From contig JAKCFJ010000001.1 of NCBI GenBank assembly GCA_025041175.1, forward strand, positions 310,001-374,000: a stretch of DNA of 64,000 nt, written 5' to 3'. The notes under the pieces are model-generated. The model was not told the origin of the DNA and did no database searches. It was given only the letters and a program-made list of their open reading frames with translations. Positions within the stretch are counted from its first letter, which is position 1. The number at the start of each line of letters is the position of its first letter. Below are positions 17,090 to 57,975 of this stretch, one piece after another. Position numbers and translations under genes: made by a program. Source of the stretch: Halobacteriales archaeon YIM A00010 (lineage in GTDB: Archaea > Halobacteriota > Halobacteria > Halobacteriales > Haloarculaceae).

Positions 17090-17160
17090 CCCACCTTTTT
17101 TGCGTTCGGGTGAGCGAAGCTCACCGCTCACGCAAAAAACGTGGGCGAAAAAAAGCCGCT
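17090..17160 (+). repeat. structured T/A-tract repeat, divergent copy
   Basis: This is a diverged copy of the 72-bp repeat at 56552-56623 and 57903-57974. It keeps CCCACC-T6, a central hairpin, an A6 run and an A7 run. Its hairpin is GGTGAGC-GAA-GCTCACC, whereas the others have GGGTGCGC-GGA-GCGCACCC, so the stem is kept while the bases differ. It lies on the 3' side of zinc-finger module copy 1, and the T runs on both strands suggest a bidirectional terminator. Confidence 0.65.
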
Positions 17161-17309
17161 CACTCGGCGAGACGGTCGCTCACTGCGTTCGCGCTGCGAC
17201 TCGCTTGCTCCCACTCGCTCCGCTCGCGGGAACTCCGTTCGCGGTGCAGCAGGGGCGTTTCCGCCGATCGCTCCGCTACTGCACCGCGACCGCACGCTTT
17301 GGTTTCTTG

Positions 17310-17861
17310 TCAGTTGTCGGTAGTCGGTGCGGCAGCCTCACCGACGATGCGCGCCAGCTCGGGGTGGCGCTGGCGCAAGCCAGCGAGATCGCCGCGCTGG
17401 CGATACTGGCAGTACGTCGCCAGCGTTGTGACCAGACAGGCCGGGGCGCTCTCGGCGTCGGGTTGTTCCGTGATCTCAGCCGGCTCGCGCGAATCGTCCG
17501 GTGTGAACACCGACTGGATCACCGTGCCGTCGCGCTGTTCGTGGAAGCGAACGCGTCCACCGTTGTCGAACCAACATTCGACGACCATCTCGCCGGTGGC
17601 GTCGTAGCGCGTGAGCCGGGCGATGCCCGGCAACTCGTCGTAGCCGCCCGTTGTGGTCGCAAGCCCGGCGGTCGCTAACACCTGCTCGATCTGGGTGGCG
17701 TGCGCGCACCCGGTAGATTGACAGGGCCTGCACCACACTCCTTCCGCTACGTCGATGCTGTGGTACAGTTCCGCTTTCGACACCACGTCCCGATCCTCGA
17801 CGGCCGAGAGATTGAGCACTTCACCCGTCCGATCACGGAACTGGAACAGCGGCAACGTCAT
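17310..17861 (-). CDS. SWIM-like zinc-motif protein, module copy 1
   Basis: The 183-residue protein starts MTLPLFQFRDRTGEV at an ATG overlapping the TGA of the upstream 48-residue zinc-finger gene. Around residue 45-55 it carries WCRPCQSTGCAH, a CxxC-x4-CxH arrangement similar to but not identical with the SWIM finger (CxC-xn-CxH). Then come ELPGIARLTRY, a strand-rich core (VECWFDNGGRVRFHE) and a helical C-terminus (ATYCQYRQRGDLAGLRQRHPEL). Several other Cys are shared with copy 2. I do not recognise a named family. A regulatory or DNA-linked role is inferred only from the metal motif and partner. Confidence 0.75.
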   Translation of the reverse strand: MTLPLFQFRDRTGEVLNLSAVEDRDVVSKAELYHSIDVAEGVWCRPCQSTGCAHATQIEQVLATAGLATTTGGYDELPGIARLTRYDATGEMVVECWFDNGGRVRFHEQRDGTVIQSVFTPDDSREPAEITEQPDAESAPACLVTTLATYCQYRQRGDLAGLRQRHPELARIVGEAAAPTTDN

Positions 17862-18004
17862 CGCCACCACCGCCCCAACGGACACCCCATCCGGTGTTCG
17901 AGACGCGTACGAACCGGCCGACCACACACCGGACACCGCTGGCGCTGTTCGTTTTTCTGATACGATGCGACACCGTTACATGTCTCTGATTCGTTCCCCT
18001 TCAT
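17858..18004 (-). CDS. 48-residue CPVCG zinc-finger protein, module copy 1
   Basis: The small protein has a zinc-binding signature, CPVCGRPVRTRLEHRMGC (Cys, Cys, His, Cys), flanked by a polar N-terminus with one more Cys and a C-terminal GRWWR. The TGA overlaps the ATG of the next gene in an ATGA junction, so the two are co-translated. The same protein and junction recur at 57278-57424 with about 85% identity by eye. It would be missed by gene finders with a length cut-off. Confidence 0.75.
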   Translation of the reverse strand: MKGNESETCNGVASYQKNEQRQRCPVCGRPVRTRLEHRMGCPLGRWWR

Positions 18005-18142
18005 GGGTTTCTCGTGCGGATAGAGGACCCAGCGTCGGGTGGGATCAACACCCGGCGCGTTTCAACGAACGCGCACGCGCTCCCGCGCTGCTGGCGTCCT
18101 CGTTTATCGTTCCTTGCCCCATCACACATAAAGGTACTGATG
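18005..18142 (-). promoter_or_regulatory. conserved leader and promoter of zinc-finger module copy 1
   Basis: About 138 bp upstream of the zinc-finger start can be aligned by eye with 57425-57560 upstream of copy 2. The start-distal end holds CTTTATGTGTGAT (minus strand), a probable TATA box near 18130. In the middle a hairpin with arms GCGCCGGGTG and CACCCGACGC is kept in both copies while its loop differs. The reading frame through this stretch is not conserved, so it acts as RNA or DNA rather than a peptide. Confidence 0.55.
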
Positions 18143-18222
18143 GAATTGGTGTAGTTCCTTGTAAATGATAGATAACTAACTCTTCACAACATCGAACAGG
18201 GAGCGGCCCCGGCCGCTCGGGA

Positions 18223-42045: not shown

Positions 42046-42116
42046 TGCGCTGGCTGGGATTTGAACCCAGGTTGTGACCATGGCAAGGTCACGTGATACC
42101 ACTACACTACCAGCGC
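42046..42116 (-). tRNA. tRNA-Gly (anticodon GCC)
   Basis: On the minus strand the 71-nt sequence folds as a cloverleaf: acceptor arms GCGCTGG and CCAGCGC, discriminator A, D arm with TAGTGTAGTGGTA, anticodon arm GTGACC-TTGCCAT-GGTCAC with anticodon GCC, and T arm CTGGG-TTCAAAT-CCCAG. CCA is not encoded. There is no sign of an intron. Confidence 0.96.
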
Positions 42117-56544: not shown

Positions 56545-56551
56545 CTCCTCA

Positions 56552-56623
56552 CCCCACCTTTTTTCCGCTCGGGTGCGCGGAGCGCACCCTCACGCAAAAA
56601 ATCTGGACCAAAAAAAGCCGCTC
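56552..56623 (+). repeat. 72-bp inverted repeat, left arm; likely bidirectional terminator
   Basis: These 72 bp are repeated exactly, in reverse, at 57903-57974. Read 5'-3' they contain CCCCACC-T6, a perfect hairpin GGGTGCGC-GGA-GCGCACCC, an A6 run and an A7 run. The T runs on both strands fit archaeal termination after secY and after the zinc-finger module, which converge here. A diverged copy is at 17090-17160. Confidence 0.8.
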
Positions 56624-56725
56624 GCTTGTTCCCACTCGCTTCGCTCGGGGGAACTGCGCTCGCGGTGAGCGTACTCACCGCACCACTCCGCTACCGCCTC
56701 CGCCACTGCTCGCTGTGGCTCTCTG

Positions 56726-57281
56726 TCAGTTGTCGGTGGTGGGTGCGTCGGCTCCACCGACGACGCGCGCCAGCTCGGGATGACGCTGGCGCAAGCCAGC
56801 GAGATCGCCGCGCTGGCGGTACTGGCAGTAGGTCACCAACGTGTCGACCAGACAGGCGGGCGCGCTCTCGGTATCTGGCTTGTCCGTGATCTCGGCGAGT
56901 TCACGTGCGTTGTCGGGCGTGAACACGGACTGCATCACGTCACCATCGCGCTGTTCGTGGAATCGGACACACGCGCCGTTGTCGAACCAGCATTCGATGA
57001 TCGTCTCACCCACAGCACAGTAGCGCGTGAACCGCGCAATGCCGGGTAATTCGTCGTACCCGCCCGTTCGGGACGTTCCCAGACCGGCAGTGGCTAATAC
57101 CTGCTCGATCTGCATAGCATGCGCGCACCCGGTGGATTGACACGGTCTACACCACAACCCCTCGGCCACGTCGATGCTGTGGTACAGTTCGGCCTTCGAC
57201 ACTACCTCTCGATCCTCGACCGCCGAGAGGTTCACCACCTCGCCCCGCCCGGTCGCGGAACTGGAACAACGGCAACGTCAT
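56726..57281 (-). pseudogene. SWIM-like zinc-motif protein, module copy 2, frameshifted
   Basis: The sequence aligns along its whole length with 17310-17861. From ATG 57281 it reads MTLPLFQFRDRAG, then an extra G in a GGGG run (copy 1 has one base fewer) shifts the frame. The proper frame resumes as VNLSAVEDREVVSKAELYHS and runs to the stop at 56726, with WCRPCQSTGCAH, CWFDNG and YCQYRQ all kept. A downstream start (GTG near 57238) could give a shorter protein. It is either a recent pseudogene, a sequence error or a switchable tract. Confidence 0.75.
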
Positions 57282-57424
57282 CGCCACCACCGCCCCAGCG
57301 GGCAGCCCATCCGGTGGTTGAGCCGCGTGCGGACCGGCCGACCACACACCGGACACCGCGTGCGCTGGTTGTCATTCTGATACGATGCGACACCGTTACA
57401 TGTCTCTGCTTCGTTCCCTGTCAT
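57278..57424 (-). CDS. 48-residue CPVCG zinc-finger protein, module copy 2
   Basis: The protein repeats the zinc-finger protein at 17858-18004: TCNGVASYQNDNQ, CPVCGRPVRTRLNHRMGC, GRWWR end. Its TGA overlaps the ATG of the frameshifted partner gene exactly as in copy 1. An in-frame ATG at 57517 would extend it, but the matching frame is not kept in copy 1, so ATG 57424 is preferred. Confidence 0.75.
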   Translation of the reverse strand: MTGNEAETCNGVASYQNDNQRTRCPVCGRPVRTRLNHRMGCPLGRWWR

Positions 57425-57560
57425 GGGTGTTCTTTCCGCTGAGAACCCCAGCGTCGGGTGTCCTAGCACCCGGCGCGTTTCAGTGAACGCGCGGCCGAGG
57501 CACGCTAGCGTTCTCATTTACTGTTCGCTTCCCCATCACACATAAAGGTACTGATGGAAC
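57425..57560 (-). promoter_or_regulatory. conserved leader and promoter of zinc-finger module copy 2
   Basis: This stretch aligns with 18005-18142. It keeps the CTTTATGTGTGAT box (near 57545) and the hairpin GCGCCGGGTG...CACCCGACGC, with a different loop (CTAGGA). Preservation in a partly decayed copy suggests either recent duplication or a function of the leader. Confidence 0.55.
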
Positions 57561-57822: not shown

Positions 57823-57902
57823 CGATTCTTTGATCAACATGCGGTAGCGGGACGGAGCGGTGGCGGTGCGGTAGATGGAAGTACGCTCACCGCGAACGCA
57901 GT

Positions 57903-57974
57903 GAGCGGCTTTTTTTGGTCCAGATTTTTTGCGTGAGGGTGCGCTCCGCGCACCCGAGCGGAAAAAAGGTGGGG
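57903..57974 (-). repeat. 72-bp inverted repeat, right arm; likely terminator of carA
   Basis: This is the exact reverse complement of 56552-56623. It starts one base after the carA stop, so CCCCACC-T6 follows carA just as it follows secY. Looser similarity continues inward to about 57880 (AGTACGCTCACCGCGAACGC), also found in inverted form near the left arm. Confidence 0.8.
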
Positions 57975-57975
57975 T

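Follow-up and report, generated by a model that had tools for sequence, protein, structure and literature searches.

A two-gene unit encoding a pair of zinc-type proteins occurs about 32 times in this genome (G000; 5.97 Mb, seven contigs), always on the 2.86-Mb main contig (C1), and is headed by a cloverleaf leader RNA in which a nearly uniform body presents a loop of 6-7 nt that differs from copy to copy. We know of no RNA family that combines a near-uniform body with a near-random loop in each copy. In our reading, to which we assign a probability of roughly 0.4, the leader RNA would be bound by the zinc proteins it encodes and the loop would serve as a copy-specific address. Two copies lie in the window (the whole 64,000-nt stretch of DNA that was analysed), both on the minus strand and both with the small and large ORFs and their ATGA overlap, at the places where the original prediction had put them:

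18005..18145, minus strand: promoter and 5' leader of unit copy 1 (alignment of 31 copies)
18023..18101, minus strand: cloverleaf leader RNA of copy 1 (covariance model R2, 74.7 bits, E 1.3e-19; covariation)
18042..18048, minus strand: copy-specific P4 loop of copy 1, TTGATCC, between GGGTG and CACCC
17858..18004, minus strand: 48-aa small protein of copy 1, CCHC zinc-finger type (C-x2-C-x10-H-x4-C)
17310..17861, minus strand: 183-aa large protein of copy 1, with invariant C44-x2-C47-x4-C52-x-H54 and ATGA overlap with the small gene
57441..57515, minus strand: cloverleaf leader RNA of copy 2 (covariance model R2, 74.9 bits, E 1.2e-19)
57461..57466, minus strand: copy-specific P4 loop of copy 2, CTAGGA
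57278..57424, minus strand: 48-aa small protein of copy 2
56726..57281, minus strand: large gene of copy 2, with a +1 frameshift after residue 12

The unit thus runs from the 5' leader through the 48-aa CCHC zinc protein and the ATGA overlap to the ~183-aa CxxC-x4-CxH protein, and a TATA-like CTTTATG is kept in the promoter of most of the 31 aligned copies. The proposed duplication is real, the two window copies sharing 80% DNA identity over 952 bp (E = 0.0), but the number grows from two to 31 protein-coding copies plus one locus (L155) that has only the leader and the small gene. Nor is the same intact unit present twice, since one extra base after residue 12 puts the large ORF of copy 2 out of frame. 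Among the ~31 large-gene copies of the genome, 25 have a full-length frame, copy 2 is frameshifted and five are interrupted by a 51-nt element. At the locus orthologous to window copy 2 in the congener G003 (L101), the unit has decayed as well: it contains stops, and no leader can be recognised. The structured repeat that had been assigned to the 3' side of the unit turned out to be a separate palindromic repeat of ~75 bp, variable in place and orientation and lying outside the unit. This T-flanked repeat is found at 17090-17164, 56551-56626 and 57900-57975 of the window, an inverted pair (98.7% identical) bracketing copy 2. Its relatives lie near many unit copies, on either side and in either orientation, and at the small/large junction in L012.

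The leader RNA is a cloverleaf of 72-84 nt between the TATA-like box and the start of the small gene, composed of P1 (6+5 bp), a variable P2, P3 and P4 (CGGGTG-N6/7-CACCCG). In an alignment of 32 leader sequences, 97.0% of cells were paired, compared to 36-52% with slid partners. Changes on both sides were observed at 7 pairs of this alignment and at 17 of 24 pairs among 35 diverse leader sequences. For the latter, the covariation score was 0.508 as against 0.175 with shuffled and at most 0.096 with slid partners, in an alignment fitted to the model, which favours the score. While P1 and P3 covary as RNA and the junction letters are conserved, the P4 stem (GGGTG/CACCC) hardly varies at all, and in alignment A5 no change is seen at five of the six pairs that form it. 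A conserved, covarying structure placed between promoter and start codon suggests that the leader is probably a structured RNA of the cis-regulatory type, and bears out the earlier proposal that the unit has a promoter and leader of its own. No family of Rfam 15 covers the element; the only two matches were weak (E 0.006 and 0.13) and both lay away from it. ARAGORN does not report the leader as a tRNA, its sole call being a tRNA-Gly at 42046-42116, and no description of the RNA was found in the searched open literature. As far as Rfam 15 and this literature show, the RNA is undescribed.

The RNA reaches much further than the protein unit. A first covariance model (R1) found it in 74 of 381 genomes across the class, and the broader model R2 in 155 of 392 genomes and in 54 of the 95 genera of the order. 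Three genomes have 28-32 matches each at E <= 0.001, and G000 itself has 44 at E <= 0.01. Named matches include Halomontanus, Natrinema, Halostagnicola, Natribaculum and Halopiger plasmids, where the element is unannotated. Beyond the units, model R1 matches the leaders of a plasmid-borne AstE/AspA-type gene accompanied by a short ORF, of genes for ~80-aa zinc proteins and of the gene for a SWIM protein. Many of the top-scoring loci that were read directly precede a gene for a small CPRCG..PCGCR protein, and a zinc-type ORF lies within ~650 nt at 17 of 40 RNA loci in three genomes. Other loci have only a short conserved ORF of the MIAYPLPRHKRLAR type, and among the 16 RNA copies of one Natrialbaceae-type genome, nine lack a nearby zinc gene. 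In G348, seven RNA copies (L438, L440, L442 and L445-L448) precede a repeated zinc-ribbon family (CDRCGDP...YCPDC). An orthologous gene for a ~80-aa CPAC...CPLC zinc protein has its own cloverleaf leader in G000 (L159, G000:C1:44586), G003 (L163) and G005 (L164). A viral origin of the RNA was considered and rejected: pattern matches on viral contigs were mostly due to chance, with one weak model match (L271, E 5.5e-4), and a Natrialbaceae-type query gave no match in annotated phages. The element would represent an undescribed class of structured RNA in ~40% of the sampled Halobacteriales genomes, with a body that appears homogenised and a loop that appears randomised.

Both proteins encoded behind the leader keep their metal-type Cys and His residues. 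In 40 aligned large proteins, C44, C47, C52, H54 and 19 other positions are invariant, and the small protein keeps a cluster of the C-x2-C, H-x4-C type in all subfamilies, including that of the single-copy genome G002. The prediction of a self-contained functional cassette is well founded in this respect: leader, small gene and large gene stay together in nearly all copies, in every species read, the large gene nearly always has the small one next to it, and the ATGA (or GTGA) junction is usually kept. Repeats are inserted exactly at this junction in L012 and L019 and inside the small gene in several G003 copies, in each case with the large gene intact. For the large gene, the median pairwise dN/dS was 0.14 in G000 (25 copies; mean dS 0.75), 0.13 in G003 and 0.10 in G005, and 0.05 and 0.07 in two subfamilies common to G001 and G004. 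The large protein is under purifying selection, and most copies are old and constrained.

Neither protein could be placed in a named family, as had been anticipated for the pair. The large protein gave nothing significant in Pfam, NCBIfam, PHROGs or the PDB, and its AlphaFold model (pLDDT 74.6, pTM 0.60), which consists of strands and three C-terminal helices, had no match below E 0.001 among solved folds. It had been described as SWIM-like, and it does share with SWIM (PF04434) a short Cys/His metal cluster ending in CxH. However, the SWIM pattern is CxC...CxH, whereas the large protein has CxxC-x4-CxH, and it did not match PF04434 at E <= 10 although the same profile library detects SWIM in the protein of L168 (E 1.4e-5). 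Membership in this family is not supported. The small protein resembles other very small zinc-finger proteins of haloarchaea, such as the one-domain CPxCG micro-proteins of Haloferax volcanii (PMC11241148, PMC6562870) and Brz of Halobacterium salinarum, which has a regulatory role (PMC2253796) and is encoded in the small co-transcribed gene pair brz-brb (PMC3184054). With 48 aa and conserved Cys/His, it is a single domain of less than 70 aa with metal-type Cys. Unlike the CPxCG micro-proteins, which have two C(P)xCG motifs, the copies read have one CPxCG plus H-x4-C. A further difference from both these micro-proteins and Brz is that the present protein comes in ~32 copies per genome, with an unrelated partner of ~183 aa and a cloverleaf RNA leader.

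The P4 loop is decoupled from its flanks. Its 6-7 nt were distinct in 31 of 31 G000 copies; for three further genomes, the figures among the copies that were read are 15/16, 16/16 and 8/8. Within genomes, loop identity was 0.41 compared to 0.40 for random pairs, whatever the identity of the arms. Where the left arms of two copies from one genome are at least 95% identical, identity was 0.96 in the P2 region, 0.73 in the spacer and 0.46 in the loop, and pairs with spacers at least 90% identical had a loop identity of 0.40, equal to the random value of 0.40. Three pairs that are 97-99% identical on the left and 100% on the right carry the loops ACTCCAG and TCCATAG (L017/L018), CCACAAA and TTGGCG (two copies in L110) and TTCAAGG and TGCACAC (L089/L090). 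The same was seen in another genus, where nine pairs of G213 copies with flanks at least 95% identical had a loop identity of 0.37, and in the single-copy orthologous leaders L159, L163 and L164, whose arms are 92-96% identical with loop identities of 0.57, 0.29 and 0.14. At orthologous loci, loop identity was 0.48-0.63 between sister species and 0.34-0.42 between distant species, against a background of 0.40. As sister-species orthologs keep moderate loop similarity, loops appear to be inherited but often replaced; conservation by locus was rejected, being absent in distant species and moderate in sister species only.

Seven-nucleotide loops are, at the same time, not free in composition. They follow N-Y-N-A/R-N-R-N, the sixth position being a purine in 51 of 54 and the second a pyrimidine in 45 of 54. 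Certain loops, TCCATAG, TTCAAGG and CTAGGA for example, turn up again in distant families. The idea that copies of one genome strictly avoid having the same loop was discarded, as identical loops are no rarer within genomes (3 of 1246 pairs, 0.24%) than between them (20 of 7400, 0.27%), which lends no support to selection for distinct loops. Complementarity of the loop to the leader it sits in, to the genes or to the flanks was not in excess (of 14 tests, one gave p = 0.015), and a pseudoknot with the rest of the leader gave no signal. Loop-loop kissing within a genome was likewise rejected, since loops of the same genome are not complementary to one another more often than expected.

A regulatory role, one of the functions suggested by the original prediction, is what these results favour most, on the strength of the RNA leader, whose nature was beyond the reach of that prediction. 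We propose that the unit could be a small RNP-type operon. Transcription would start at the conserved promoter and yield first a cloverleaf RNA of ~80 nt and then two translationally coupled zinc proteins. One or both proteins may bind the nearly invariant P4 stem and the junction of their own leader, which could determine how strongly the operon is expressed and/or free the cloverleaf as a small RNA. The loop, which varies, may act as a copy-specific address, a seed or kissing loop for a partner or target RNA of its own; such a role would lead the loops of ~30 otherwise equivalent copies to diversify, while gene conversion would keep the body uniform. Evidence against this reading comes from the search for a loop partner, which found none, from identical loops being no rarer within genomes than between them, from a predicted large-protein fold that has no confident counterpart, and from the RNA copies of the Natrialbaceae-type genome that have no zinc gene nearby. 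The constrained seven-nucleotide loop might be an RNA loop that presents its bases. Recognition loops of this kind, with a YUNR U-turn, are found in the antisense RNAs of plasmid copy control and type I toxin-antitoxin systems (cf. PMC6562991). There, too, a loop of 6-7 nt on top of a conserved stem can determine specificity. These systems differ from the present leader, for which neither an antisense partner nor a loop complement was found and which forms a dispersed chromosomal family with a uniform body.

Alternatively, the cloverleaf could be a riboswitch-like leader that senses zinc or another ligand and controls the zinc-protein genes, with an irrelevant loop that drifts. The nearly invariant P4 stem, the conserved junction letters, the covarying P1 and P3 and the recurrent place before small zinc-protein genes are all in line with this, yet drift leaves unexplained why loops differ where the arms, and even the unconstrained spacer, are identical, and the composition of seven-nucleotide loops is not free; we regard this explanation as unlikely. 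It also seems improbable that the loop is the functionless product of a hypermutable hairpin, in which the perfect GGGTG-N6/7-CACCC palindrome is cut or mis-copied in DNA, for example by hairpin-loop nucleases or template switching, and the loop is redrawn upon duplication or conversion. Loops do resemble independent draws whatever the relatedness of their copies, as in the three orthologous leaders L159, L163 and L164 with their similar arms and dissimilar loops, but the position-specific constraint and the recurrence of the same loops in distant families count against this scenario. Very unlikely, in our view, is site-specific recombination, with GCGCCGGGTG-N6/7-CACCCGACGC as the core site of a recombinase and its 6-7-bp overlap swapped during integration and excision, in the manner of the coupling sequences of Tn916. 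The imperfect 10-bp arms around a variable centre of 6-7 bp and the decoupling of the loop from both arms would suit such a site; against it stand the covariation of P1 and P3 as RNA, the conserved unit sequence on both sides, and the finding that no integrated element or recombinase was seen at the copies.

Returning to the leader as an RNA addressed by its loop and bound by the co-encoded proteins, a class-wide haloarchaeal RNA family with up to ~30-40 copies per genome, its own 6-7-nt address in nearly every copy and co-encoded small zinc proteins could tentatively point to RNA-guided or copy-addressed regulation of a kind not described before, a broader step that we consider doubtful. With some 32 loci that are equivalent except for a single short loop, the genome offers a genetic handle on loop-encoded addresses in archaea, and on the role of the many orphan small zinc proteins of haloarchaea.

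The protein module is a lineage-specific family. Four of six congeneric genomes have 19-25 matches each and the other two one match, and in near-complete relatives the matches are on contig C1, except for one on C3 of G004. No convincing match to the large protein was found in the other 110 relatives, and outside the genus a class-wide sample of hundreds of Halobacteria gave weak partial matches with stops in two genomes only. Its only named relative is in Halocatena pleomorpha (63% identity). Extra 3'-end fragments of the large gene, comprising approximately the last 30-45 codons and the 3' flank, lie beside or near full copies at L021, L030, L033, L034 and L038.

Many G000 copies are flanked by genes that match the neighbours of copies in G003 and G005, with shared loci including L011/L097, L014/L099, L018/L100, L019/L089, L029/L092, L037/L095 and window copy 2/L101, and a few positions are common also to G001 and G004. 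The large proteins of G003 and G005 nevertheless form a supported clade apart from those of G000 (100/100), and G001 and G004 have two separate large-protein families with about ten members each per genome. Since orthologous loci carry genes that group by genome (tree and synteny), the copies appear to undergo concerted evolution, probably through homogenisation by gene conversion. Dispersed copies are similarly kept alike within a genome in the concerted evolution of rRNA operons via gene conversion (e.g., PMC8022953). The units differ in that they form a lineage-specific protein module and that their loop is exempt from homogenisation. The Halocatena-type module seems to show clearly that dispersed protein-coding loci of an archaeon can evolve in concert. 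Some copies also sit at rearrangement breakpoints, as G003 copies join flanks of different G000 copies: L098 has the left flank of one and the right flank of another (L015 and L017), and L086/L088 likewise join G000 flanks (L016).

A transposon with a sharp left end was also considered. The apparent edge reflected that copy 1 lacks the usual upstream block; most unit copies share further sequence upstream of this edge, and neither a transposase nor consistent termini were found at the copies. The suggestion of a small mobile or defence unit is not supported, and the weakest of all alternatives, a selfish element multiplying across the chromosome, is highly improbable despite its ~32 copies and the lineage-restricted protein family, given the lack of transposase and consistent ends, the orthologous loci in different species, some common across the genus, and the old copies (within-genome dS ~0.75) under purifying selection.

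The five interrupted large genes (L033 at G000:C1:1734976, L034 at 2058548, L035 at 2632521, L036 at 930657 and L037 at 23001) all have the 51-nt double-hairpin element inserted at one and the same codon (W-C-R), and it brings TAA and TGA into the reading frame. The insert is identical in three of these five genes, and hairpin 2 of L037 has compensatory changes. Downstream, the frame is mostly intact (pN/pS 0.25), with a later stop in one of the five, and L063 of G005 has a similar insert at the same place. An archaeal BHB intron was rejected because, in place of a bulge-helix-bulge, the insert has two local hairpins, and because other genes contain this element too. There it lies in frame and without stops, in TnpB genes at the same site in two species and in an ArsC-like gene (L082, G000:C1:2672290; L073, G004:C1:814342; L076, G004:C2:145345), and in these genes it resembles the Rickettsia palindromic elements.
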